Shown in pieces: positions 2,393 to 20,571 of a DNA stretch of 20,593 nucleotides; the stretch's first letter is position 1, and the number at the start of each line of letters is the position of its first letter. Under the pieces are notes generated by a model. It did no database searches, was not told the origin of the DNA, and saw nothing but the letters and a program-made list of their open reading frames with translations. The stretch is taken from the NCBI GenBank assembly GCA_019096195.1, contig JAGTXK010000096.1, positions 1-20,593 of the forward strand, read 5' to 3'. Both the position numbers and the translations under genes were made by a program. Source of the stretch: Boletus sp. NGJ. Its lineage: Eukaryota; Basidiomycota; Agaricomycetes; Boletales; Boletaceae.

Positions 2393-3343
2393 TGTTACAC
2401 TGGGTAACAATGTGACATGTTCCTATATAATCCCTGTTGGATTATAGGACTAGCAGGACTTGAGGGGAAAATACCTCCAGAGGCCCAAGGTTTCCTCTGA
2501 CTGGGGACCAACTGCTAGCTTTACGTAGAGTCCTGTCATTACCTCTATGACCAATGACGGAGTCTTGGATTTACCACGGTGGCGCAATCCTCCAAGAAGG
2601 AAGGGCAGACCAGAATGCGGAGGCCAGAGATTAGTGCCTTCCCTGGACTAACTCTACTGGGCTTACACGGCCTAGTGCCAGTGGCGGAGTCCTGACTGAT
2701 ATGGGCCAACCTCTTGTTGGTGTTGAAGTTGCTGAAGCTTTAGAAGCAGGTAACAGCAATGACAGCACACAAGTGTGAAGTGATAAGAAGGATGATCATG
2801 AGCATGAGGGTGATCACCTCCAGAGCGTGGAGAAGGCTTCTGAGGTGAAGTGGAACCTTTAGCGGGAGAAGCTTGGTAGATTACATGAGAAGGAGTGTAG
2901 ATCTAGGTTAGAGTTACATGAAGGGCCCGTGTCCCTATTTATAGGCCTTGCCCATCTAGGGCAGGCTTCATGATGAATATAGTAATTGTAAGTTACAGAC
3001 GAAAGATTACTATAAAAGGATCAAGGCATAAGTCTGAATGGGGAAGGTAGGAGTACTAGGCTGTGTACGAGAGAACACAGCTGGGGAGGCAATGTCTATG
3101 ATCAGATCAAGAAGAAAGAAGGCATATATCAAATGAGATAAGGGAGGCAGTGTCCATATCAAACAGGTAGCTTTCTGAAAAGGGAGTTACGAGTAACTTC
3201 CTAGAAAGGAGGTTCTGGATGGAGCAATGCCTGAGTTGGTGTCACTGGGGAATCCCTGGTCTGAGTTGAAGAATAGGTCGTCCCATAGTCCTACAGGGGG
3301 TGAGGGAAGGGGAAAAGATGTACCCCCTTCGGTAACTGTAACA
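2393..3343 (+). repeat. Solo LTR, copy B (951 bp)
   Basis: Same family as copy A: it starts TGTTACACTGGGTAACAATG and ends TCGGTAACTGTAACA. It has a perfect 5-bp duplication, CCAAC, at 2388-2392 and 3344-3348. TATA box and hairpin lie at 2936-2966. It is the shortest copy, with about one minisatellite unit. It lies in the minus-strand gene that spans 1966-4833, close to a predicted exon end. No retrotransposon coding region adjoins it, so it is a solo LTR formed by LTR-LTR recombination. Confidence 0.92.
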
Positions 3344-3641: not shown

Positions 3642-4624
3642 TGTTACACTGGGTAACAATGTGACAGGTTTCCATATAATCAACCCTGTTTGATTATAGG
3701 ACTAGCAGAACTTGAGGGGAAAATATCTCCAGAGGCCCAATGATTCCTCTGACTGGGGACTGCTGCTAGCTTTGTGTAGAGTGTCCTGGTTGCCTCTATG
3801 ACCAATGGCGAAGTCTTGGATTTACCTACAGTGGCACAATCCTCCGAGAAGGAAGGGTAGACTGGATGCGGATGCCAGAAACTAGATCTCTGGGCTTACA
3901 CAGCCTAGTGCCAGTGGCGGAGTCCCGGGCTTGTAGGGTCAGTGGTGGAGTCCTGACCAATATAGGTCAACCTCTGTTGACAAAGGCCGGTGGTGGAGTC
4001 CTGGGCTTGCATGGACCAACCTCTGTTGGTCGTTGAAGTTGCCAAAGCTTTAGAAGTGGGTTCAGATGGCAACAAGGCCACACAAGTGCGCAGTGACGAG
4101 GAAGACGATCACTAGCACAAGGGCGATCACCTCCAGAGTGGGAGCAAGGCTTCTGAGGTGAAGTGGAACCAGTAGTGGGAGAAGCTGGTAGATTACACGG
4201 GAAGGAGTGTAGATCTAGGTTAGAGTTACATGAAGGGCCAGCGTCCCTTTATATAGGCCATGCCCATCTAGGGCAGGCTTCGTATCATATATGGTAATCA
4301 TAAGTCGCAGACTAAAGATTACCATAAAGGATCTAGGCATCAGTCAAATGGAGGTTTGGAATACTAGGCTGTGTGTGAGAGAACACAGTCAGGGAGGCAA
4401 TGTCTATGATCGGATCAGAAAGAGGTGAAAGGCATGTATCAGTAAAATAGAAAGGCGGTGTCCAAGCCAAACAGGTAACTTCCTAGAAAGGGAGTTCCGA
4501 ATGGAGTGATGCCTGAGTTGGTGTCACAGGGGAATCCCTGGTCTGAGTTGAAGAACAAGTTGTCCCATAGTCCTACGGGGGTGAAGAGAGAGGAAAAGAT
4601 GTACCCCCTTCTGTAACCGTAACA
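3642..4624 (+). repeat. Solo LTR, copy C (983 bp)
   Basis: The left end TGTTACACTGGGTAACAATG is identical to that of copy B, and it ends CTGTAACCGTAACA. The 5-bp duplication is CTCTG at 3637-3641 and 4625-4629. TATA box TTTATATA at 4248-4255 and hairpin at 4256-4278. Read on the minus strand, the duplication is CAGAG. It contains the AG of a predicted splice acceptor in the split gene, so the insertion landed exactly at an intron-exon border. About three minisatellite units are present near 3910-4005. Confidence 0.92.
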
Positions 4625-4833: not shown

Positions 4834-5169
4834 TCCTCTTATATCCGAACAACTCCATTAGAAACAAGAAATGAAGAACATTGTGGACATACTTGACAAC
4901 CATTGTGACATAGTCTAACCGCTTAGCCAGCTAGAGTTCATGGCTATTGATTAACTCCCTGACAAAGGAGTGGGCATGTCAAGTTGTTTATCACCCTCAG
5001 AAGTGTGTTGGTTTTGACCTCTTAGATGGAGAAGGATGTGAGTGTTTGTGAAGTTTCCTGAAACCCCTCATCTCTGTGCTTCGTGTATCTGGGGTAAGTT
5101 TGATTATTGTCTCAAGGTCTTCTTGACCACTAATTAATGTCCCTTTGCAGTTTCATCAATAGCTTTTTG
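4834..5169. other. Stretch with no recognised gene
   Basis: No long open frame, RNA gene or repeat was recognised between the minus-strand gene piece and the KDZ fragment. It would be the place for the 5' end of the minus-strand gene and for the lost upstream exons of the transposase, but neither can be traced in it. Confidence 0.4.
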
Positions 5170-6895
5170 TGCTTGACTCTCAGGTTCACCACCTGCATGT
5201 CAAGTCTCTTGTATATTTTGATGATTGGTTGCACCAGTGGTGGATGCATTGTCAGAAGAAAATGGAGCTTCTGAGACACTTGCATTACTGGAGATTGAGG
5301 AATCTGTCCTTCAAGATCAATGGGCAGCCTAGGTTGCTCATCAAACAGCACCTCTAGTTTGTACATTGTTCTTACACTCTTTTGTCATATATTCTTGTCT
5401 AACTGTATGTTATTGTCTGTGCTGCAGGACAGGCAAAGAACAATGTTGATGAGGAGATAACCAGGATTCTTGCACTAGAGAAGACCTTAGAGCATCAACA
5501 GATCATTACCAATGATCTGGAGCACCAGCTTGCCATGGACAACAGTGGCGATGTTATTGACTTAAACATTTGCCTCATTGAAGCAAGATGCAAGCTGTTG
5601 ATAACTGCTGCTCTTGTTAAAAAGTGCTGGGTGGCTTTAGGTGTATCTGATCATGCCAATCTTGCTGCACTCAAGTACAATGTATATTTACAGGTAAGTG
5701 TAAGTAAATTGCAAATCACATAGGGACTAATTGGGTTTGGATGCCAGGTATGTATGAATGCTCATGGATTAAAAACTCACATATGGAAGTGGCTTCATCA
5801 ATGCAAGTTTGAGCTTAAACAATTGGAGCGTGCCTACTACACCATAGTGAATGGTATGTCTGTACTATTCACCTTTGGATACTGAAGCTTAATGTGCTCT
5901 TCATGATGTAGAGAACTAAAGGCAGGACAATGTTCAAGCAGCTATCAAGTGATGCAAACCAACCATCCTCGAGCTTGTCAGCAATTATAATACTTTTTGC
6001 AAATAGCTGTCAACACTCATTGATGGTGGCACAGCACCTTCTGGGGCAGTTGTCCCTCCTAGTATATTTTGTGAGGGTATATTTCAACTGGATGTTGATG
6101 ATGACATATGGCAAGACATAGATTTTGATGATGCCATTACTGATCCCCCACTTTGGCTTGCTGATGAAAACATGCATATTGGTATTCACCATCTACTAGA
6201 ACATGACCAGTGTGTGGAGGAAGAAGCTAGAGTTTGCCTTGAACATTATATTCTTCAGAAGAGTGGAACAATCTCTAGGAAGCAAAAGATAAAGCAGGTG
6301 AGTTATTTACTGCTTTTAATGTCTTAAGAATATTCTTATATCTAGCATGTTTTAGATGTGGATAAACTATATCAGTTAGATTTGCATGAGATTGAATTTT
6401 GTAGGCTATGTGTCCAGTAGGAGATACAAGTTCATCACATACCTTGTGCTTGGACTATGCCAGATAGCTGGGGGCCCTAAAGTATTACTCTTGGCCACAC
6501 TGCACTTGCCATGCATCAACCACAGAGTGCCCATGGTAAGTACAAGCTTCTAATTGTTATTGGACTATATGCTCAGTATACTCCTGTTGGATAGTTTCTC
6601 ATTATACAGAAGTAAAGTTTTTTGCCTGTGAGGTTGATGGTTTATGCTCATTTTGTTGCAAAATACCAGCCTAGTGTGGATGAAGTGGGAGAAAGAGAGT
6701 TGATTGAGGAGGAGGAGGAGGAGGGAGAGAGAGGAGGAAATGATGAATTGATGGCAGAAGCTGAGGATGCTGCATTAGCCTATGAGTATCAACTTGATGG
6801 GCAAGATGATGACAGATGATAATGTGTTTTCTGAGTCCCCTAGTATCATAGATGATGATGTTTGTACTCCACCCTCTAAGAGGCTGAAAATCTGA
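5170..6895 (+). pseudogene. KDZ-family transposase, C-terminal exons only (broken)
   Basis: Several exons on the plus strand read as the tail of a Kyakuja-Dileera-Zisupton (KDZ, CxC-type) transposase, known from basidiomycete transposons. Diagnostic pieces are a coiled-coil part (EEITRILALEKTLEHQQ), KYNVYLQVCMNAHGLKTHIW, FELKQLERAYYTIVN, KPTILELVSNYNTFCK, the acidic block IFQLDVDDDIWQDIDFDD, then PPLWLADEN and LLEHDQCVEEEARV. The proposed introns are 5357-5432, 5694-5747, 5854-5911, 6298-6404 and 6536-6609, all GT-AG, and they keep the frame. The last exon is acidic (a Glu-rich run near 6700-6735) and seems to end in a basic TPPSKRLKI at 6895. Stops interrupt it at IK*CKPT and FCK*LST (CGA and CAG changed to TGA and TAG) and also near 5335 and 5917. 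The RNase-H-like catalytic core that would precede this is absent, so the fragment cannot transpose DNA by itself. Confidence 0.75.
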
Positions 6896-7548
6896 ACATA
6901 CTTTGCTTTTCATCTAGTCTTGTCATTGCAATTCTTTATTCCTAGCTCCATCTTTAGCAGCATTTGGGAATTTCCTCTGCCATGTCTAGTAATCATAGGA
7001 AATTCCCATCTTCACATCTAGTAATCATGGGGAATTCCTGCCTCCCCCAGCCTCATCCAATTCAACAGTCAAGCTACCCCATTTCATAGCATATGCTTTG
7101 AGAATAAAACCTTGTTTCTCAATAACTTTTGCTATCTTGTACTGTAAGTAATTCCAATCTCATTAAATTCAATAGTCAAGTTGTCTCATTTCATAGTATA
7201 TGCTTTGCAGAGGATAGAAATTTATTCTTTAGTAACCTGGCCTTATTTTCTCTACTGTGGAGAACAATCACCAGATCTCTCCTCAGTCCTATAAAAGGCT
7301 TTTTATCTTGATTTCAAATGAATAATTGACCTCTTTTTTAGTATAAGAAATTCCTTCAAGTTCTAAATCATGATTAAATAGCATATATTACATTTGAAAT
7401 AAAGCACAGCAGGACCCCTAATACCCTGTTTATATGGAAATTCCCTGATCCTAGGCATCTCATAGGTCCAACCCTCTAGTGGGAGAGATGGATCTATAAG
7501 GTACCTCTGGAAGGGTGACTGAAGTGTTTGAACTATCTCATCTCAACA
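6896..7548. other. Spacer between KDZ fragment and NUP192 relic
   Basis: AT-rich sequence without a credible gene. It holds the short GGAATTCC tandem repeat at 6966-7038 and further GAAATTCC-type words near 7347 and 7437. A partly repeated passage (AATTCAA.AGTCAAG followed by CCCATTTCATAGCATATGCTTTG) occurs at 7060-7100 and again, diverged, at 7164-7205. The last 100-200 bases could contain the old NUP192 promoter, but no clear promoter motif is visible. Confidence 0.4.
6966..7038. repeat. 32-bp tandem repeat with GGAATTCC cores
   Basis: Two units of 32 bp (6966-6997 and 6998-7029) share the tail TCTAGTAATCAT(A/G) and begin with GGGAATTTCC and GGAAATTCCC. A third partial unit, GGGAATTCC, is at 7030-7038. 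The core is palindromic. The same core recurs at the left edge of the window (9-56). The repeat starts about 70 bp after the KDZ stop codon, as subterminal repeats of a DNA transposon might. Confidence 0.55.
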
Positions 7549-7714
7549 ATGGATTTCATCACCACACTCAGGTCCATCCTGGCCACAACACTCACCACAC
7601 ATGGGTATGGCAAGCAACACCTTTTTAACAGCCTCATCCTACACAAGTCTCATCTCTGTGACCTCTGGGATGTTGGCCAGCCCTCACCCCAGAAACAGCA
7701 CAAACTTCACTCTG

Positions 7715-7767
7715 GTCCATATTCATCCCTTTCTGCATCTCTGTGTTTGACACTCACATTTGTGCAG
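7715..7767 (+). other. Intron 1 of the NUP192 relic
   Basis: A 53-bp GT...AG interval (GTCCATATTC...TTTGTGCAG). Splicing joins HSG to KIMVNG in frame. Its presence argues that the copy arose by DNA duplication or is the decayed original locus, not by reverse transcription of mRNA. Confidence 0.65.
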
Positions 7768-7829
7768 GAAAGATCATGGTCAATGGCAGATCTCTCACAG
7801 TTAACGCCAACTTTGTGCACCAGGCCATA

Positions 7830-7857
7830 CAGTTATCCACCGCTGTTTGTGCCACCA
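7830..7857 (+). repeat. Left terminal inverted repeat of the pogo-like element
   Basis: CAGTTATCCACC..., pairing with 10754-10781 with about four mismatches over 28 positions, counted by eye. It overlaps the subterminal motif that follows directly. Confidence 0.75.
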
Positions 7858-8125
7858 CCATTATTTGCACCAACACACAAAAGCAAGCCAACTTTGCTCG
7901 ACTCTCCATTGCAAATGTCACTAGATAATATATATTGTATATAGCATGCTAAATACTAAGAAACAGGTTCATAATTATGTTTGGATCTTGACCAATATGA
8001 TGTTTTCATGTGAAATTTAGAGTAATTCACTCACTCTGAGACCAGATGAATTTTCATGTCATTGAGTTATCAACAAACAAATAAAGGTAATGAAAAGTGT
8101 ATATCTATGACCTGAATATCAGTTA

Positions 8126-10518
8126 TTGCCACTATGTTGTTGTGCCATGAACAAGCTGGTGAAGCATATTCTACACACCATCTTATCTCAGTGCCACATA
8201 AAGATAACATCCAAAAACAGAATGTGTGGAATGATAGGGTCATGTCATTGTTTGAAAATTCTGCTCATTGCATTTGGGCAGAAGTGGTGGGTTGTGCTCA
8301 TTCAAAGACTAAAAAGAAATGTTTACAGGCCAGCAAGCATGAAGAGGCTATAGTAGAAGCAGTTGAGATATTACAAGAACAAAGATCAAAACCCAAAGTA
8401 ATTCAAGAGAGCATTCGGAAGATTTGCAACACTGTTGAAAAAAAATGGCAGGCCAAGCCTGGCTATAAGGATGTTAGGGTCAGTTGAGATACTGTGCAAT
8501 GACAGATAGATGGAGGGCACACCCGACAACAAAGTAGTATGAAAACAAAGTCCTGGTTATTAGAACAAGAAGAAGAACAGATTGTCAAGTTCTGTCTTGA
8601 GTATACATCACAAGGTTTCCCTCTCAGACATCACTCCTTGAAGCACCATGTTGACAGCATACTATATGCACAAAGTGCTGAGAATTTTCCAGCATCAGGA
8701 GTCAGAAAGCACTGGACAGACCGTTTCATTGGGTGTCATCATATCCAATTGGGTCAATTTTGAAGTTCTGCTTTGAATACCACACACAGTCAGACTATCA
8801 ATGAGCACACACACAAAGCATGATTCAATTTACTGGGAAGCACTATGAAGGAGCAGGATATTGCAGAAGATTGCCTATGGGCCACAGATGAAACAGGATT
8901 TCAACCTGGCTGTGGTTAGACACAACATGTTATCAGAGCAGCTAACAAAAAGACACAGTATCAGCAATGTGATGGAAACTGTGAAAATATTACTGTGATG
9001 GTGATGATATGTGCAGATGGAGATGAAATCTGATCAGCCATAATCTACAAGGGAAAAGGCTTTTCGACCATATGGCATTAAGGAAATGAGCTAAAGGCAT
9101 CATAAGTGACATGTTAGCACAGTCCACATCTAATATCAACATACAATAGTATTGCTCATTCTGATAAGGGCTGGACAGATAAGGTTATTGGTCGTCTTTG
9201 AATTGAAGATTTTGAACAAAAAACCCATAGCAAGACCAATGGACACACACGAATGCTTTTTGTTGATGGACACAACTCCCACCACACACAGGATTTTTTA
9301 GACTATGCAAGGAATCACAACATTCACATACTTTGCTATCCAGCTCATGCAACATACATTTATCAAGGTCTTGATGTCATGGTCTTTGGACCACTCAAAG
9401 AATATTGGTCACAGGAGCTGGATGCATTTCAAAGCCAAACAAGACAAAAAATAATGAAAACAAACTTTATTTCAGTCTACCTACGAGCCCATTGATGAGT
9501 GCTCACCCCAGAAACCATCCGCATAGCATTTTGGATCACTGGAGTCTGGCCATTCAATCCAGAGGTGATCGCATCAGATAAAATGGCTCCAAGTCTTGAA
9601 ATGTCAGTGGTCAGACATCTACCCATTACACAACCTAGCCCTATTCAGGCACTTGTCTTAGTAATGTGTATGTGAGTGATGTAATTCAGTAACAACCTAC
9701 TGATCATGTCTTTCATAGCTGCCAGAACCTCATCAGGTCTGAATGCTATTGCTAATGATGCACATAATGCACTTGCACAATCATCAGCATCATTCCTTGT
9801 CCAGCCATCACTGATTACTGTAGACAATCAGCTCCTAGTGTTTACACCACTTCAAATCTCACCCACTCGTAAATGAAGACATGAGCTCCTAGAATGTGAG
9901 CCAGAAGATAGCATAGAGAAGGCTTACCAAGATGCATTGCATGAATTCTATGACTGTGAGGCCTGGCTGAAAACATAAGTGACTGGTTTGCATGCAGCGG
10001 GTGTTCTAAACGGAATCTACTGTAATCATCTGCACAGTCAGCTAGCAGCACAAGAAGAAAAGGAACACAATGCAAAGAAGAAGAAAGGGAAATTGATGGG
10101 GGATGGCTTACCAAAGTATTTGACAGGCGATGAATTTTACCAGCGAGTCATTGATTATGACAAGGTGGCTGAGAAGGAAGAATTGGCAAAAGACAAGCAC
10201 TGAAAAACAAAAGAAACACACAATAAGGAAAGGGTGGAATGGAAAAATGCAGAGAAAGGTCGACTTAAGAGAAACTGGACTTATTGGGAGGAGTACAGGA
10301 AAGAGCTGGCAGTTTGGGAGGATGAAAGGGATCTGGTGAAGCAAGAGAACAGACAGACTCAATGGAAATGACCAGTTTTGACAGGAATTGAGTCCGCACC
10401 ATGGAAAGTTGGGGGAAAGGGTCAGGACATTGCTGGTGGAAGTGGAGATAAGAGTGGCAACAATGTGTCTGATGGTGTGTCAGGTGAAGACAACAGTGGG
10501 AGTGCAGCAGATGATTGA
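8126..10518 (+). pseudogene. Fot/pogo-like DDE transposase, broken
   Basis: Domains in order: a psq-like helix-turn-helix (EEAIVEAVEILQEQ, near 8340-8490), a CENP-B-type DNA-binding region (EEEEQIVKFCLEYTSQGFPL, KHWTDRFIGCHH, 8560-8730), then the DDE catalytic core. The three acidic residues are visible in WATDETGF (about 8880-8900), LFVDGHNSHH (about 9255-9285) and YQGLDVMVFG (about 9363-9390). I count 35 residues between the second and third, the Fot-type spacing (DD35D). Further core motifs are KKTQYQQCDGN, IYKGKGFSTIW, DKGWTDKVIG, CYPAHATYI and WPFNPEVIASDKMAPSLE. A C-terminal charged coiled-coil part follows (LMGDGLPKYLTGDEFYQRVI, 10094-10150) and ends near 10518. Many in-frame stops (for example after GCG, WH, KAS, GRL and RAH) and frameshifts make it inactive. 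An extra 44 bp at 9106-9149 (GTGACATG...CAATAG) may be an intron. Confidence 0.82.
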
Positions 10519-10753
10519 TACTGGAGATTATGGGCCAAACATAATCATGATGTTGATATTTCATTTTTGGCCTGGTGCAAATAGTGGTGGATGCACAATA
10601 AGAGCTCAAACTTGCATTTCACAATCACAACTGCACAACACTCTTGATGAACTCGATTTTCTACAGAGACAATGTTTAGATATATACAATAAATATTACA
10701 ACTTCTGGTCTACTATAAGTATTGTTGTTGTGATGTATGAGCTCAGACAAATT

Positions 10754-10781
10754 CGGTGGTGCAAACAGTGGTGGATGACTG
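10754..10781 (-). repeat. Right terminal inverted repeat of the pogo-like element
   Basis: Read on the minus strand it begins CAGTCATCCACCACTGTTTG and matches 7830-7857. It is bordered by TA at 10782-10783. Confidence 0.75.
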
Positions 10782-12271
10782 TATTCCTCATATAGCAATT
10801 CAAAAGTACATTGCCAGCATACACCATGCTATCATGGCCAATAACCCAAACATCATCCCCATCAACTTGATCAAGGCAGCCATTGTCGAGTTCCACCTGT
10901 GCAGATGCCATCTTGTCAATTGCTTGTGTTACCTCTTTGAGGCCACCACACTCACACAACTGCCAGACCTGTTGTGGCTCCATCTCCATCTTGAGGTGTT
11001 TGTCAGGCAAGAGCTTGTCCCTGTGACAAAGTCAGCTGGCATAGATGCCTCTCTTGCATTCTGTATCTTCAAGAAGATCCAGTCCCTCAGTACAGCCTTT
11101 ACATATGCCCAAACAGCAAGACAAAACATGCAGAGCAACACCATTTCCCCATCCAGTTCATGTATGTAAAATCTACTCCCCAGCCTTGCCCTTCTACTCA
11201 TGCCATTCAAGATTCATTCCCCTCTTTGGGTTACAACATTCTAAATGCCCACTGCAACTTGCTCAAGTATGAATGACAGTATCTATCCATGCTCTACTAC
11301 TAGAGTACTTCTTCCTGAACAAGGTACAATGTTCAATAGACTGGCTTGTGCTTAATTCAAATGATCCCATGATGTTCTACATTCTCACTGCCACCCTTGC
11401 TGCATTTGACCCAGCAGACCCCTCACTCCTTCCTCAGCAAAGTCTGCAAAAGCCTCACCCTCAACAAGGACACCATCACATATATAAAGCAACAGCTTGC
11501 ACCCACTACAAACTGGAAAGAACCTGGCTTAAAGGCAACCATATTGCTCAAGTGGATGCTCTTCATGACAGAGACCAGATATCACAACCCCTCCTTGGAG
11601 AACCAAGAAGGTTTCAAAACAAACTTGAATCTCAGATATAGAATGTCATCCAAGGTGATGCATTTACATACCTCACTGCCACCCTCATTCAGCTCCAGAA
11701 ATGCATGTACACCTTATCTATGAGCTCGTTCACACCACATATGCTAGCACTAAACTGCACAAGATCAAGCAGAGGCGAGAAGATGTGCTTGCAAGCGTCT
11801 GCACAGATCAGTCTAGGATGTTTAGGTCTGCCACCCCTCTCAGTGGTGAAAGTGAAAGTCAATCTGCACCATGGAACAATGTCACTGTGCTCTAGTATGC
11901 ACTCATCAGCATCCTCTACATGTCCCTCCTATTTGAACATGTGCTACAGTTCTGTGGTGCAACTCCCCTTGACAAGACATATGCTCTGTCATATATGAAG
12001 ACCATGGAAATATCTATGGGCAAACTGCCATTGTTCTTGCAATGGGCTGTGTGGTCTACTCAAGTTCATGACATGAATTTAACAATGGCACTATATGATA
12101 TACTTTCAGATCTCTGCAAAGGGCTAGCAATGTAGTGAGCTTGCATACAACTTCCTCACTCAAGGTGATGGGGAATTGATCCCAGGTAGCAGTCTACCAA
12201 GTTCAACTGGTTTGTTTAACATCAGTCCCTTAATATCATGGTCTATGATCTTTGCCCTTCTTGAGTCCTAG

Positions 12272-12546
12272 GTGTTATGATATGAATAATTTCAAACTTT
12301 TGAATCACATTCTGTAACAACTCTGCATTGTACTTATTTTCTAACCAAGTCATGTGACTGTGCACATGACTGTGGGAACAATCACATAATATGGTCTAGC
12401 CTTATGATGTCATATAACATCATACCTCATGTGATCCATGACTCTTTAATTTCTGCTCTTCTCACATAGCCTCTATAATATCTGTCTTACCATATGTAGT
12501 AAATTAGTACACACACAGCATGGTCTGTGCACCAATCCTGTACATA
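12272..12546. other. Stretch with no recognised gene
   Basis: AT-rich, stop-rich sequence between the last NUP192-like codons and the mariner element. It may be decayed NUP192 sequence, but I could not align any part of it to that protein. Confidence 0.4.
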
Positions 12547-12548
12547 TA

Positions 12549-12764
12549 CAGTGGCTCAAAAAACTGTCTGCATGTTTGGTCATTTTTCACTAAACACATT
12601 ATTCCCCAATAACCCCTAACCCTTACCCTAACATAGAGGTGCATGAAATAAAGCACTGACCCTTGGCTTTCTATTCATCAAGGTTTTAGGACATATGAAT
12701 AAGAATTGATGAACTGGCAGCCATTTCAAAACAATGACTCATTCGGACAGTTTTTTGACTCTAA
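12549..12764 (+). repeat. Left 216-bp terminal inverted repeat of the mariner element
   Basis: It pairs with 13934-14149. Each arm is itself bounded by an inverted pair: the outer edge reads GCTCAAAAAACTGTC and the inner edge GGACAGTTTTTTGACTC. Inside is a telomere-like passage, CCCCTAACCCTTACCCTAAC (12608-12627). Confidence 0.9.
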
Positions 12765-12940
12765 GTTTTGATTACATATATTGGACCCTAGCATGGTGTA
12801 ATATGATTACATACATTTGATAAGGCTTCTATTATGTCACCATTATGTAACTGAGTGTCAGACAACATATATAAATCCCATCATTCCATGTTTATTTTCC
12901 CACCATCACCATAAAATCCATTTCCATCTCTCAAAAAAAC

Positions 12941-13919
12941 AATATTATCTCTCTCTCCTCTCATGGGCTTTCCTCTAGGAAAATCTCTGCCCAAACTGGC
13001 CTAGGGAAGTCTACAGTATGCCAAGTGCTTTATAAACTCCAGCCAGAGAAGACTAGACTTCTTGGTGGCTGTCCTTCCAAGCTTACCTCTACCAACAAAA
13101 GAGCTATTGTTCAGCAAATTATTACTGGAAAGGCCAGGAATGCTGTTCATGCTGCCCAATACATGAATACCATTATATTGATACCCCTGTCTGTCCTCAG
13201 ACTGTTAGAAATACTCTCAAGGAAGCCTCCTTAAAGGCTGTGGTAAAGAAGAAAAAGCCACTGCTTTCTAGTGGTTACAAGAAAAGAAGATTAGCCTTTG
13301 CTCTCAAGTACCAGCATTGGACTGTGGAGGACTAGAAGAGAGTTATATGGTCAGATGAGACCAAGATCAATAGGATTGGGTCAGATGGGCAAGAGTATGT
13401 GTGGAAAAAGAAAGGAGAGGGGCTAATTGCTAGAGAGGTCCAAGGCACAGTCAAGTTTGGAGGAGGTTCACTGATGGCATAGGGTGGAATAGAGTGGGGA
13501 TTTTGAGTGAGGTGGAGGGGAGAATGGATGTTGAACAGTATGTGGCCATATTGGAGCAGGGGTTGCTGCAAAGCATGGAGGAATCTGGGATTCCAGAAGA
13601 TGACATTATCTTTCAACAAGATAATGATCCCAAGCATACCTCTAAAAGAGCCTAAAGATGGTTTGAAGAGCAAGGAATCAAGCTTCTGGACTGGCCTGCA
13701 CAATCTCCAGACCTTAATCCCATTGAACATACTTGGAATCACCTCAAGAGATGCCTCTCAGATTATGAAAATGCTTCTACAGGTGTTCATCAATTGTGGG
13801 AAAGAGTAGTGGAGCAGTGGGGAAAGATTGATGAGGAACAGTGTCAGAAATGGATAGAAAGTATGCCTAGAAGGATTGAAGCAGTTATCAAGGCCAAAGG
13901 AGCTCATACCAAGTACTAG
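12941..13919 (+). pseudogene. Tc1/mariner transposase (DD34E), broken
   Basis: Reads as a Tc1-type transposase of roughly 320 residues. The N-terminal helix-turn-helix shows HGLSSRKISAQTGLGKSTV (12962-13018), then GGCPSKLTSTNKRAIVQQI and CPQTVRNTLKEA. The catalytic core has the first Asp in WSDETKINRIG (about 13350), the second in FQQDNDPKHTSKRA (about 13610-13650) and Glu in SPDLNPIEHTW (about 13710-13735), with 34 residues between second Asp and Glu. The C-terminus ends GAHTKY with a TAG at 13917-13919. Defects: a frameshift near 13170, a stop at 13333-13335 and another in LMA*GG (both TGG to TAG), a frameshift near 13495, and a stop in RA*RW. All three catalytic residues are still encoded. 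The true start codon is not clear; 12941 is the first base of the readable frame. Confidence 0.87.
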
Positions 13920-13933
13920 ATACCTAGATAAAT

Positions 13934-14149
13934 TTAGAGTCAAAAAACTGTTCAAATGAGTCATTGTTTTGAAATGGCTGCCAGTTCATTGATTCTTATT
14001 CATATGTCTTAAAACCTTAATGGATAGAAAGCCAAGGGTCAGTGCTTTATTTCATACACCTATATGTTAGGGTAAGGATTAGGGGTTATTGGGGAATAAT
14101 GTGTTTAGTGAAAAATGACCAAACATGCGGACAGTTTTTTGAGCCACTG
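13934..14149 (-). repeat. Right 216-bp terminal inverted repeat of the mariner element
   Basis: Inverse of 12549-12764. It has the same outer (GAGCCACTG) and inner (TTAGAGTCAAAAAACTG) borders and the same telomere-like passage near 14071-14090 on the minus strand. Confidence 0.9.
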
Positions 14150-14151
14150 TA

Positions 14152-14936
14152 CAAAGTAGACCTTTGATGACTGGAAACCCCAGTCTAATCCACTTATATT
14201 CTTCCTCCAACAACTCATTGCCTTGACCACTCTGGTCATTGTAGGGTTGGGAATAGTATGAATGCGACTCTCCACCTTATTTATTAAGCTAGGATTTGTG
14301 TAACCTGCAAAGCAGCCGAGCCTTGTGGTGTGATGCTGTGAACAGTTCATAACACTTGGATTAGACTATTATACACAATGCTTGGACTCCAGAGCTAAGG
14401 AGATATCGTATATGTGGACCTAGCATTTAAGGAACATTTGCAGTCTTCACCACTTGACAGTGATAAGTATAGTACTCGCTGAAATACTAGTTATATACAC
14501 TTGTCCAGTGTCATAAATATAGATAAAGTTGCTGCCAGGCATAGTGCACTAGCCCCCTTTCTCAAGTGGATGCTGACTTGAGTGTATATTGGTTTCTATG
14601 ATAGTGGACCCAGGTTCTTGTGATCACCCATAATGTCACAACTAACAAGGGTAGTATTCCCTTATGCTGTAGCCAGGTGGATCTGGCTCCCCCCATCAAA
14701 ACTTTTTACAACCTCTACTTCAACTTGTATGTAGGTACCCCAGAGCCCAGTTGTAAGATACTGGGCAGTAAGGTACTGAAAGAAAACTGACCAAGGAAGA
14801 CCTATATGGCAAACTCAGACAAGAAGAGACCTCTATGTCCTTCATCAGCATTTTGTGTTATATCACATTGCTATTCATTGATCCTACCTCCTACCTCACT
14901 TTCTTTTTAAATCCATAACCAAGTATGTCCTGAGTG
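14152..14936. other. Stretch with no recognised gene
   Basis: Lies between the mariner element and the gypsy-like gag. Frames on both strands are short and stop-filled. It could hold the leader and LTR of the gypsy-like element, yet no TG...CA repeat, primer-binding site or TATA box could be defended. A small minus-strand frame at 14105-14350 runs into the mariner inverted repeat and is therefore not a gene. Confidence 0.4.
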
Positions 14937-15729
14937 GACTTAGATGATCTTGTCACAAGACTTGCCAATCTCACCCTCAAGTGAGATAAGAATAACATCA
15001 CCAAGAAAATCGCTGACCCTAGAAAATGGAATGGCAATCATGTAACCTTCCATAGCTAGTGAGTCAAGCTGTGCTTATGGATTGATGCGCAAAAATGGAA
15101 ATCCAACAAGATCCTAGTGATAGCTATGCTATTGTGCCTCAAAGAGAAGGCAGAAGGGTTTGGTCAGCTCATGATGGAGTATTATCTTGAGTAAGAAGAC
15201 ATAAGGGATGTAGATGAACATGGGAACCCCACTGCCCCCAAAGGAGAGAGCACATGGCCCACATGAAAAAAGATGCAAGAAGGAATCCATGCACACTTCT
15301 GCATTAATACGCTAGCACACAAATCCTTAAAGAAGCTAGAGGCTCTTAAGAAGAACAGGCACCTGATTGACCAGTTTTGACAGAAGTTTGAGATACTTTG
15401 CAAGGAGTCTATGATTGATGATCACCATGCTCTTGTACTCATCAAAAAGACCATAGACTTCAAAATCTACAAGAGATCTTGCTTGAACAACCCTGTGAGA
15501 ACTTATGACTACAAAGATCTGGTGATAACGTACAAGGTTATAGGAAGGGCATTCAAATAGATGCAGACAGAATGCAGCCCTTCAATTCCAGCTTCACAAT
15601 TTCCCCCCTGTTCTCACTATCCTCCTCCACATGGGCAACCCCCACAATATAATCATCTGCAGTTCACAGCTGTGGGAACACAACCGGGCAGAGGTGCTCC
15701 AATGGAGATCAACACCCAGCAGGCTGGAC
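14937..15729 (+). pseudogene. gag: Ty3/gypsy-like gag fragment, interrupted by the copia element
   Basis: One frame, read through stops, gives DLDDLVTRLANLTLK, KKIADPRKWNGNHVTF, VKLCLWIDAQKWKSNKILV, LCLKEKAEGFGQLMMEYY, LKKLEALKKNRHLIDQF and YKDLVITYKVIGRAFK. A Pro/Gln-rich linker and a GRGAPMEIN motif follow. This order (capsid helices, then a linker ending in PM[DE]I) matches gag proteins of basidiomycete Ty3/gypsy elements. Gag forms the particle in which reverse transcription takes place. Stops occur after LTLK, FHS (two), YYLE, WPT, QF and AFK; most are explained by one C-to-T or G-to-A change. The frame reaches the copia LTR at 15730. The zinc knuckle and pol that should follow would lie on the other side of the copia element, beyond the window. 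Confidence 0.62.
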
Positions 15730-16071
15730 TGTCAAAAGACACAAGGACGTGTTTTTGAGAGCTAGACAAAGTAACTCAGCGAACACGAAAGTGTAAGAGC
15801 ACTAATATTAATACCTAGACAAAGTAATGAGGTACTTATAAGCATGAAACAATGTGAGTCTAGCTGGTCAACATACCTCAGCAAACATGAAAGTGTGAGA
15901 GTGCTGAGGAGAGATGTCAACTGGGCGACATGTGTGCTAGTGCTACAAGATTACATAACATGATAAATGTGATAAGATGAGTGCACAAAGGTGCTACAAG
16001 ATTCCAAGTGCAAGATAGTGCAAGATATGGAGCAGCTAAATGAATAAGATAAGATAAATAAGTTCAACACA
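15730..16071 (-). repeat. 3' LTR of the copia element (about 342 bp)
   Basis: On the minus strand it begins TGTGTTGAAC (or TGTTGAAC, two bases later), directly after the polypurine tract, and ends TTTTGACA at 15730, where the gag frame of the host element stops being recognisable. Internal repeats: CAGCGAACACGAAAGTGTAA and CAGCAAACATGAAAGTGTGA on the plus strand (near 15778 and 15879), and GTGCTACAAGATT twice (near 15940 and 15991). The exact left end is inferred from TG...CA ends only, because the second LTR is not available for comparison. Confidence 0.7.
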
Positions 16072-16080
16072 CCCCCTTTA
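16072..16080 (-). other. Polypurine tract overlapping the pol stop codon
   Basis: TAAAGGGGG on the minus strand, immediately 5' of the LTR start. It would prime plus-strand DNA synthesis. Its first three bases are the TAA that ends the readable pol frame (SLAAS*). Confidence 0.7.
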
Positions 16081-19000
16081 GGAGGCTGCTAAACTGAGAG
16101 CTGTGAAAAGCTTGGAGAAAGCAGGCCTCTATAGAGGTTTTGTGAGAATATCTGCTATGTTTTTGTATGTAGGTAACCAGATTAAATGAAATATGCTATT
16201 GTTGACATGTTCCCAAATGAAGTGATATTGAATGTTGATATGCTTTGTGCATTGATGGAACTTTGCTGCTGTGAAGAGTGCAATGGCTCCAGTGTTGTCA
16301 AGAAAAACCTTAATTGGGATCTGAAGTGGAAGTGAGAGTTTGGTGAAGAGGGACTTGAGCCAGAGGCCCTTCTGGATGATGTGGGTGATCGCCATGTATT
16401 CCATCTCAGTGGAGGACAAAGCTACCATTGTTTGTTTCTTAGACATGTGCGAGATTAGTCCACCTGCATAAAACCAGGCATAGCCTGATACAGAGCAACG
16501 TCCGGCCTTGTTTGCCCAGCTTGCATCTGCATATACATAAAGCTCGGGGGTTTCTGTTTCAGCACCACAGTGAAGATGGTGGTTGAGCATTCCTGCCAGG
16601 TAACGAAGCACTCTCTTCCTGGCTGCAAGTGACAAGGTGAGGAATCGGTGTTGAATTGTGCAAGCGAGTTGACTATGTATGTGATGTCAGGTCATGTGTT
16701 GATGAAGAGGTATACTGTATGAGTTCCCTGATTAGTTTAAGGTAGGACGAGTGAATGTTTGCGACTTCTGGGTAGGAGGTTGTGGAATCTCCAAAAGGAG
16801 CCTTAGGGTCAGCAGGAAGGCAGACGGGATTGCAATTGGACAGTCCATACTCCTGGAGCAAAAAGGTGATGTACTCGCCCTGGTGCATCTACAGTTGACA
16901 ACTTTTCCTTTCTCATTCAAACTGTATTTTGACACTGGCCCTAAGTCCTTAATCCTGAACTTCTCTGTAATTCTCCTTTTTACCCTCTCAAGAAAGGAGT
17001 GCGAGTTTGAGACTCCCATTCCATCATCAATATCATCCAATTAGACATTTGACCTTCATAGGTGAGGTGCTGAGTGCAAGGTTAGTAACACTGGTGGTGA
17101 GATCATCCTCACTGTCATAATAAAACAACATGTGGTCTGACTCAGTGTGAACAAACCCCAGGTCCGACATTACAGTACAGACCTGCTCATACCATTCAAG
17201 TGCTGATTGCTTTAGTCCATAGATAGAGTGTAGCATGAGCCACACAGACTTCCTTCAATCACCTTGCTCAAATCCCTTTAGTTGATGCATGTAGATATCT
17301 TCCTTGAGAATGCCCCATAGGAATGCCCTTTTTGCATTAAAGGTGTCAATTTCCAAGTCGTGTTGACAACTGAGTGCAGCAAGTAAACAGATAGTTGCTG
17401 GTTTGATAACTGGAGTGAATATAACACCATAGTCGATCCCTGGGACTTGCCAGAAGCCTTGAGCGACAAGTCGTGCCTTGTATACTGAGCCTCCTTTGTT
17501 GTCATTCTTAAACTCAAGAACCCAGTGGCATCCTATTGCTTTGCGACCTTCTAGTAGCTCTGTGATCTTGTATACATTTATGTCTTTTATGGTCTATAGC
17601 TCTGTCTTCATCACCATGAGCCATAGTTCATGGTCAGGTCGCAGCATGGCCTCCTCGTGTATAGCTGGTGGGATGGACATGTCATAGTCTGGTGTGGAGG
17701 GATCTCAACGCTTGTCACTTCTAATGGCAATATGAGCTTGCTCGCCTATAGCAATGTCTGCTGTGATGTCTGTGATGTCATTGTTCAATTCAATGGCTCC
17801 CAGGGAGTCAGTATCCATGGCCTTGTTGTCTGTCACCCCCTCTGATGAAGCAGGGTGGCCTAAATCGTCCAACCACACCCCCTGAGTCGTGACAAGCGCA
17901 TGCTGATCACAAAGCACATCCAGACAGGCCTTGACAGCTGCATGCTCTTCAGCATAGGCTTTACCAGCTTCAGTCATGTACTGTGTGTGACTGGACTTGC
18001 GAAGGGGGTTAGGAGGTGGTAGCACCATAGCAGGAGGGGGGAGGATGGACACAGCAGGTGTTCTAGGCACCATGACCATATCTGTTGAAGAGGTGGATGT
18101 GGGAAGGGGGGGGGAGGGCAGCACAGGCTCATCCCTGTCCTCATCAAAAATGATGTCGCGTACAACAAAGAAGGCATCACTGGAGGTGTCATGTAGGCAA
18201 TAGCCCTTCACCCCCTCTGGATAGCCTATGAAGAGTGCCTGACATGACCTTGGTCCAAACTTATTCTGCATCTCAGTGGAGATATATGCCCAACATCACG
18301 ATCTGAACATGCAAAGGTGGGACAAGTCATGTTTCTTGTTGTTAACCATCTCATAGGGTGTCTTTCCAGGTGGGAGGACTGTGAACTCAGTACAGTTCCA
18401 TAGGTAGGCAGCAGTAAGGACAGCCTTACCCCAAAGGGTCAGGGGTAGACCAGCAGCCTTGAGCATAGCGAGAGAACAGCCCTCAAGGGTCCATATTGTC
18501 CATTTGGCTTTATCAGTTTGTTAATGAGCATAAGGTGCTGCCAGCTGTCTCTTAATCCCAGCATCCTTTGGTGCTTTTGTAAACTCCACACTCAGAAATT
18601 CCCCACCATTGTTGGAACGAAATGCCTTCACCCTACACTCTGCATGATTCTCCCACAAGCTCTTGACGATTTGCCATGCATCCAATGCTTGGTCCTTGGT
18701 AGCAAGCAGTTGAACATTGATGACATGCATGTGATCATCCAGGAAGATAATGAAGTAAAGCTTTGCATGTGGGGTTCAAATAGGAAATGGTCCATAGAAA
18801 TCAGAGTGGATCAGATCCAGCATATTTGCCATGTGCAGGGTCTTAGATGGGGGATAGGGTTTGCGAGAGTGCTTGACCATGATGCATGCTTCACATTGAG
18901 AAAGTGGCTTGGAATGGTCTATGCTTATGCCAGTTGCAACTAATGGTAAGCACTTTACTGACTTGCCCCCCTAGGTGACCCATCCTAGTGTGTCATAGGT

Positions 19001-20496
19001 CTAAGCTCACTGCAGTTTTGGCAACCATGGAGATCTCCCATACCATTGGTGCTTGCAAGAGGAGCTCGCTGGAGTGAATGAAGTGTAGCTCCACATGACA
19101 GAGATTCCCCATCAAGGGGAGGTCATCCAGAGCTTCACCATGATAGGAAAGTTGACACCAAGCTGACGTCCCACTGTGCGACCCTTTGAACTCATAGTCC
19201 CAGCCTTTCTCCAACATGTGCCCAACCGAAAGAAGGTTGGTGAGCATGTCCGGAGTGTGGAGGCAGTCATGCAATGTGACCCAGTACTTCTCTCCTCTGA
19301 GGATAAGATCTGTGACATGCCAGTGGCACATAACATACCATGGTTGGCAGTCTGGACACCCAGGTAGTCCTCTGTCTGGAAGTCCACGGAGTACTCCCTG
19401 TTGATAACAAGGTGAGATGTCATACCCAAGTCAAGTAGAATGGAGACAAAGTCATCAGAGAGTTCAGTAATTGTAGCACAGGACAATTCACACTGGTATT
19501 CGCTGGTAGAAGGGTTCTGGGGAGTTGATGAGGGTGAATCAGAAGAGGTTGCCATGGCCACCACTGCAGTCTCAGGCTTCTGACTCTTGTTGTGAATCCA
19601 TGCAGGGGCTTTGTTCTCCATACCACTGCCAGGCCAATAGCAGTGAGCGATATCATGGTTGTCAACGCGTGGAAGGCTAGTGTATAATGCATTGGTACAT
19701 TTCACCCCTTTAGGATTGTTGCGATGCATCCAGAATCCAGTGACAGGATTTGTTTTGATGTTCCCCCCCATATCTTATACAACTGTGACATTGGCATATT
19801 CTAACCCTGGTCCCACTAATTTTCTCCTCCAACAATAGTGTTTGCCTTTTCCGTGAACAATTTGACAACAGCATTGAAAGTCAGAGTCAAGGGAGTGGTG
19901 GTGCTCATGGTAGAGGTGGAGAAGCTAGACATACAGTTCATAGTGAACTCCTTAAAAATCTGCCATTCAATGCCATCTAGGAGACCTTGGAGCAAGTCGA
20001 AGATTGATTCATAGTCGGAGTAGATGATTCCCATTTGAATAAACCTATGATGTGTATCCTCAAAGACCCCGAGATATCAAGATGCGTTATTGGTGTCTTT
20101 GAGTTTTTCTGAGCATATTCAAGCATGAAGCTTATACTGGGAAAGTAGGTCATTTTGAGAGTAGCATTCAGATAGGATATTCCATTGTTCACATGCTGTC
20201 TGGCTTTCATTGAGTTGGTTTGCGACAACAGAGGAAATTTTTCAGTCAATCAGTGCCTTGGCTTGTGCATTCTTTACCAACCAGTCAAGGATCTTTTCCT
20301 TTTCCTCATCAGTAACAGCAGTTGGGTTTGCTGGTATTGGCTTATTAATGGTGAACTCTGCGAAATCGATCGGATCTGTGCCATTACTACAGTGGTTCCA
20401 GAGACATTCACCCTTAAGGGCAAATGTCATCTGACAATGCCACTGTGTGTAGTTCTCAGCCCCCATAAGTTCACAAATGTGGTTGTATTTCCCCAT
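16078..20496 (-). pseudogene. gag-pol: Copia gag-pol polyprotein, decayed
   Basis: Starts MGKYNHICELMGAENYTQWH (ATG at 20496) with a copia-type Gag (NPTAVTDEEKEKILDWLVKN). A damaged zinc knuckle follows (KCTN...HDIAHC, second Cys replaced by Tyr, near 19640-19700). The protease motif is LLDLGMTSHLV (about 19440-19405); the usual DSG is DLG. The pre-integrase and integrase follow: LHDCLHTPDMLTNLLSVG (about 19280), CEACIMVKHS (about 18890), first catalytic Asp in LIHSDFYGPF (about 18800). The second Asp is Asn in FRSNNGGEF (about 18610) and the Glu is Lys in TDKAKWTIWT (about 18500). Reverse transcriptase: SIYGLKQSALEWYEQV (about 17220-17175), with the YVDD box reduced to DIDDGMG next to a frameshift (about 17040). 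RNase H: YADASWA, SSTEMEY, LDNTGAI (16540-16300), ending NIADILTKPL, a premature TAG at 16129-16131 and a later TAA at 16078-16080. Many frameshifts and stops; it cannot make an active enzyme. Confidence 0.88.
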
Positions 20497-20571
20497 GGTT
20501 ATTTCCGCAGTCCTGAGTGAGCGCTCTGAGTCTAAATTTCAATGATTAGGATTCTGCCTAGTTAGAACCCG

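Follow-up and report, generated by a model that had tools for sequence, protein, structure and literature searches.

Our results indicate that part of a short contig of the bolete Boletus sp. NGJ is very probably a duplicated pseudogene of the nuclear pore gene NUP192, copied at the DNA level and since decayed. The relic lies at positions 7527–12272 of the window, which is the whole of the contig analysed (C36, 20,593 bp), and covers the first ~600 codons of NUP192, or about the first third of the gene, with homology ending at 12272. The genome searched comprises 32.8 Mb in 141 contigs. BLASTN aligned the window to the region of an intact NUP192 gene on another contig, C38, in three collinear blocks with E values of 3e-89 to 0 (7527–7829, 83.8% identity; 10802–11731, 80.2%; 11736–12272, 80.4%), which together correspond to C38:100693–102620. 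Identical bases make up 1450 of the 1768 aligned (82%), and the similarity, as scored by BLASTN, is far above chance. A first-pass annotation of the window had placed a NUP192 relic at 7549–12271, with roughly the first 600 residues readable in pieces. That interval was right to within about 22 bases and the homology does stop near codon 600, but NUP192 sequence occupies only its two sides, with an inserted DNA transposon at 7830–10781 between them.

The relic, which like the elements in and beside it is given on the plus strand, can be followed exon by exon along the intact gene. Homology begins 22 bases 5' of an ATG at 7549, so that 7527–7548 align to the DNA just upstream of the NUP192 start codon (C38:100693–100713). 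Exon 1 (7549–7714; C38:100714–100879) is followed by intron 1 (7715–7767; C38:100880–100932), whose GT...AG ends are kept, and by the 5' part of exon 2 (7768–7829; C38:100933–100994). Beyond the inserted transposon, the 3' part of exon 2 (10784–11161) aligns to C38 up to 101382, although its first ~18 bases align poorly; intron 2 (about 11162–11211; C38:101383–101435) and exon 3 (11212–12272) complete the relic. The coding parts carry six stops created by non-CpG substitutions and frameshifting indels of 13, 1, 4, about 112 and 1 bases, as well as one 3-base insertion that stays in frame; exon 3 has both stops and frameshifts, including the ~112-base deletion, near 11735. Disabling changes are thus present as stops, frameshifts, this deletion and a transposon insertion, and the copy is presumably not expressed. 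Like other duplicated pseudogenes, it retains introns and is homologous to an intact gene elsewhere in the genome, here NUP192.

Domain and structure searches of the relic alone, made before the intact gene was found, gave little. Seven separate peptide pieces gave nothing above the Pfam cut-off (one chance-level match, E = 0.11), and the stitched pieces likewise had no Pfam match. A single piece had no match in the PDB. The stitched pieces hit a single chain there, a Nup205 (6lk8_A), and the hit was weak although collinear (E = 0.0011). No relative was confirmed in IMG/VR, a collection that may omit the window's own genome.

NUP192 is essential in yeast, and the first-pass annotation had accordingly predicted an intact copy elsewhere. 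Judged by its sequence, the gene on C38 is that copy. A 108-residue relic peptide matched only itself and C38 near 101,654, where 1,528 residues can be read in an open frame; an uninterrupted stretch of 1502 amino acids there matches PF11894 with E = 2.7e-170, and Nup205 and Nup192 are its best matches among solved structures. A search of the genome for the NUP192 family returned six matches, four of them on C38 (100,932–106,391), one on C20 and one on C73, the last (C73:869976–870506) weak and below the cut-off. The same search missed the window's own relic and is thus insensitive to pieces of this kind. Our spliced model of the C38 gene stops at 105,946, and its last residues are unreliable because the family search shows a further exon. 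This gene presumably does the NUP192 work of the cell. The expectation of one full-length gene plus the window's fragment was borne out as far as it went, but a second fragment, on C20, came to light as well.

The retained introns bear on how the copy arose. The first-pass annotation had noted one intron kept at the start and took it to point to DNA duplication; two are in fact kept, and both align to introns of the parent, which indicates duplication at the DNA level and rules out a retrocopy. A processed pseudogene made through mRNA would lack introns, and nothing speaks for one except that the relic starts near the 5' end of the gene; we therefore reject this origin, to which we give next to no chance.

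We also considered that a mobile element brought the NUP192 fragment to this place in the manner of Pack-type elements or Helitrons, and the first-pass annotation had suggested capture by a neighbouring transposon. Transposons do stand on both sides of the relic, and a third lies within it. The one within (7830–10781) is a Tc5/pogo-like DNA transposon, the name pogo being in part our presumption, with inverted CAGTYATCCACC... ends and the duplicated TA target on both sides. It matches PF03184 (DDE_1, E = 1.9e-9) and PF03221 (HTH_Tnp_Tc5, E = 3.9e-5), and its transposase frame is interrupted by stops. Copies on C38 and C82 share about the same endpoints (for example C38:17850–21995) at 90–93% identity. 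The intact gene holds a single uninterrupted TA at the corresponding point in exon 2, that is, the empty site of the insertion.

The left edge of the relic is set by a remnant of a probable KDZ transposon (4968–7526) whose terminus, GAGGGTGACTGAAGTG, ends at 7526. Like the names Tc1 and methyltransferase used below, KDZ rests on Pfam matches, and here the match is marginal (PF18758 at 4968–5093, E = 9.4e-5; 26.4 bits, or 27.1 with neighbours, for a cut-off of 26.6); another copy of this terminus (C109:517691–518169) has a strong KDZ match (C109:520511–521152) at a distance of ~2.3 kb. We compared this repeat with 14 other loci: in 13 of them the sequence in common breaks off at the counterpart of base 7526, and in the remaining one at that of 7524. 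NUP192 sequence follows the terminus in none of these 14 loci, among which four pairs share flanking sequence. The right edge is set by the long terminal repeat (LTR) of a retrotransposon (TGTTATGA...TTCATAACA, 12273–14354), which is split by a Tc1/mariner-type element at 12549–14149 with ~222-bp inverted ends, TA on both sides and a DDE_3 match (PF13358, E = 3.4e-8). The repeat that begins at 12273 has at least 39 other copies, and 37 of 39 begin within 5 bases of that position (40 of 290 candidates scored). Among 13 copies compared, all match the first half of the LTR, all match the second half, and 5 extend into internal sequence.

These ends place the relic outside the KDZ element and outside the LTR, with the third element inside it, and so indicate that transposons interrupted and truncated the relic; there is no sign that any of them carried it. 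Within the window, the relic is not enclosed by the two ends of any one element, and searches with 7527–7830 and 11397–12272, as DNA or protein, found only the intact gene (10831–11396 was not searched as DNA). Capture is therefore very unlikely, although a larger element with ends beyond the contig could still enclose the relic. The first-pass annotation had also proposed to delimit the duplication by its flanks. The edges of the relic could be placed, but the duplication itself could not be fully delimited, since transposons truncate the relic on either side and the contig runs out short of their other ends. Searches from the parental side covered both flanks: copies of the downstream stretch C38:102621–112000 were found on C20 alone, and for the upstream stretch C38:92000–100692 the nearest match stays over 1.8 kb short of the ATG. 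On the upstream side of the intact gene, 3.9 kb (C38:92607–96459) are 87% identical to C31:125287–129206.

A clear mark of the copy's decay is the loss of CpG. Taking the C38 gene as parent, 3 of 153 CpGs are kept in the relic, 75 have become CA, 51 TG and 6 TA (132 of 153 in these three classes), 11 are otherwise changed and 7 are deleted. Outside CpG, the relic differs from the gene at 166 of 1472 sites, and transitions in the direction C to T or G to A outnumber the reverse by 82 to 43. Counted by context, C to T (or G to A) affected 139 of 292 CpG, 34 of 235 CpA, 30 of 226 CpC and 18 of 227 CpT sites. The base before the C matters little, with only CCG lower (strand-resolved, TCG 44/90, GCG 43/79, ACG 32/64, CCG 20/59). 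The ratio of observed to expected CpG is 0.06–0.07 in the relic versus 0.80–1.29 in 1-kb steps along C38:95000–112000. Across 376 half-kilobase pieces, which come from loci around transposons and genes of interest and are not a random sample, the ratio shows two peaks, with 101 pieces below 0.1 and the second peak near 1.

This pattern also bears on the possibility that the window represents a working but diverged NUP192, an allele from the second nucleus or an artefact of assembly. In favour of this, the contig is short and a large share of its sequence resembles repeats or transposases. However, the coding part contains stops and frameshifts and has taken up a 3-kb insertion, which speaks against a working gene, an allele or an artefact, and sequencing error would not convert CpG specifically to CA or TG. 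We regard this explanation as barely credible.

The loss of CpG from the duplicated pseudogene was probably caused by deamination of methylated CpG. Such deamination fits the excess of CpG to TpG or CpA across preceding bases and the C-5 DNA methyltransferase domains in the genome, where PF00145 has five matches at four places (two at C45, then C102 and C22). A BAH domain adjoins one of the C45 matches (E = 2.9e-10), and a sub-threshold BAH match lies beside C22 (E = 0.004). In PMC4352252, CpG-type decay in basidiomycetes is linked to a Masc2-like DNMT1, and in PMC5974365 the methylation of Pleurotus transposons is mostly at CG. The relic resembles the repeat decay with a CpG signature and the Pleurotus CG methylation in that its transitions are concentrated at CpG and its genome has C-5 methyltransferase domains, with a BAH domain at one locus. 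It differs in its target, here a low-copy fragment of a host gene in a transposon island and not a transposon. The repeat-induced point mutation (RIP) of ascomycetes, as described in PMC4352252, likewise mutates duplicated DNA from C to T, but the main target here is CpG and not CpA. We rejected ascomycete-type RIP, with its preference for CpA, because CpG is the most affected context both in this relic and in the one on C20.

Several of the mobile elements that we measured lack CpG altogether. Each of 12 KDZ terminal stretches (from the 14 loci, two being too short) contains 0 CpG where about 10–16 are expected. A Tc1-type element at C20:275984–277565 has 0 CpG against 69 expected, counted in the element itself and not in its matching places; its last ~563 bases recur with 98–99% identity at 18 or more other places. 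Apparently these multi-copy elements no longer contained CpG when they spread, as though they had adapted to a host that methylates CpG.

The second relic raises the question of whether both come from one event. C20:277564–278316 is a decayed NUP192 fragment with stops, 73% identical to C38:103036–103833, and its profile match extends to 278496. We consider it possible, at somewhat less than an even chance, that the C36 and C20 relics are pieces of one former second NUP192, split by transposon insertion and rearrangement; such a history would extend the duplicated-pseudogene explanation and does not oppose it. The two relics have no part of the gene in common and follow its order. The ratio of nonsynonymous to silent rates (N/S) at non-CpG sites is similar in them (0.445 in C36, 0.406 in C20). 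Loss of CpG is near total in both, the C20 relic keeping 0 of 69 parent CpGs (5 of the 69 deleted), and the surroundings of the C20 relic are likewise a CpG-poor island, where elements related to the KDZ, solo-LTR and Tc1-type elements of the window occur. However, non-CpG divergence is slightly unequal, at 90 of 613 sites in C20 versus the 166 of 1472 in C36 (Fisher p = 0.034). C to T at CpA is also more frequent in C20 (28 of 88, with CpG at 68 of 129) than in C36, a difference that might stem from RIP-like activity or else from ancestral CpGs lost in parallel. In addition, the gene stretch between the relics, C38:102621–103035, was found nowhere else in the genome, and no sequence seen links the two contigs. 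On balance, a single origin of both relics is plausible from the sequence comparisons.

Several observations weigh against the view that the duplicate was simply a pseudogene that decayed as we describe. The N/S ratios of the two relics are low; pooled they give 0.427 (bootstrap 95% interval 0.335–0.542), and the value is 0.427 when possible ancestral CpG sites are left out. For a copy that never functioned, N/S of at least 0.5 would be expected with branches of equal length, and 10–12% of bootstraps reach this value. The introns differ at 9 of 89 non-CpG sites, below the silent rate of 0.196, although the sites are few. Changes were counted with the C38 gene as parent, with no relative from another species to polarise them. 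Finally, two of the five PF00145 matches show stops when read without introns, and some of these methyltransferase loci may not be intact. The ratios hint that the copy was functional for a time before its death, which does not contradict its being dead now. It is conceivable, though rather unlikely, that the genome once had two working NUP192 genes, of which the second was under selection for a while and was then inactivated and depleted of CpG, with transposons splitting it between two or more islands (C36 and C20). If so, setting the loss of CpG against the divergence at silent sites could reveal when it died.

Our results support a model in which NUP192, or a large part of it, would have been copied at the DNA level with its introns. 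The copy would then have lost its function, nearly all its CpGs changing to TpG or CpA while stops and frameshifting indels accumulated. The Tc5/pogo-like element would have inserted inside the relic, the KDZ element 22 bases upstream of the ATG, and the LTR retrotransposon at about codon 600, with the Tc1/mariner element entering the LTR later. Apart from the nesting, this order is one that we infer.

In kind, the relic is ordinary, and it is unusually legible. It resembles other duplicated (non-processed) pseudogenes with nested transposons in its introns, stops, frameshifts, intact parent and insertions in and around it, and we see no difference in kind, except that here the ends of transposons set both edges and the original size is lost. 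Within the collection of papers searched, none contained both Nup192 and pseudogene. The locus offers a well-resolved case of the apparent death of a duplicated gene in a fungal transposon island. Because its parent is known, the loss of CpG can be read base by base on DNA that is not a transposon, which separates CpG decay from ordinary divergence. Decay driven by CpG makes copies seem older than they are, and here the total difference of 18% compares with 11% outside CpG.

The remainder of the window is also rich in repeats. Left of the KDZ remnant lie three related ~1-kb repeats (100–1112, 2393–3343 and 3642–4624), which we take to be solo LTRs, with perfect 5-bp target duplications of AAAGG, CCAAC and CTCTG, respectively. 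The repeat at 2393 has a relative at C20:~275040. A single LTR insertion common to C20 and C36 was rejected, since the target duplications differ (CCTGG versus CCAAC); the two inserted independently, at points of one KDZ-associated sequence that are separated by ~15 bases. To the right of the LTR, the frames at 14600–20520, read without a family search, include what we take to be gag-like remains on the plus strand and a broken minus-strand polyprotein, presumably Copia-like, towards the end of the contig.

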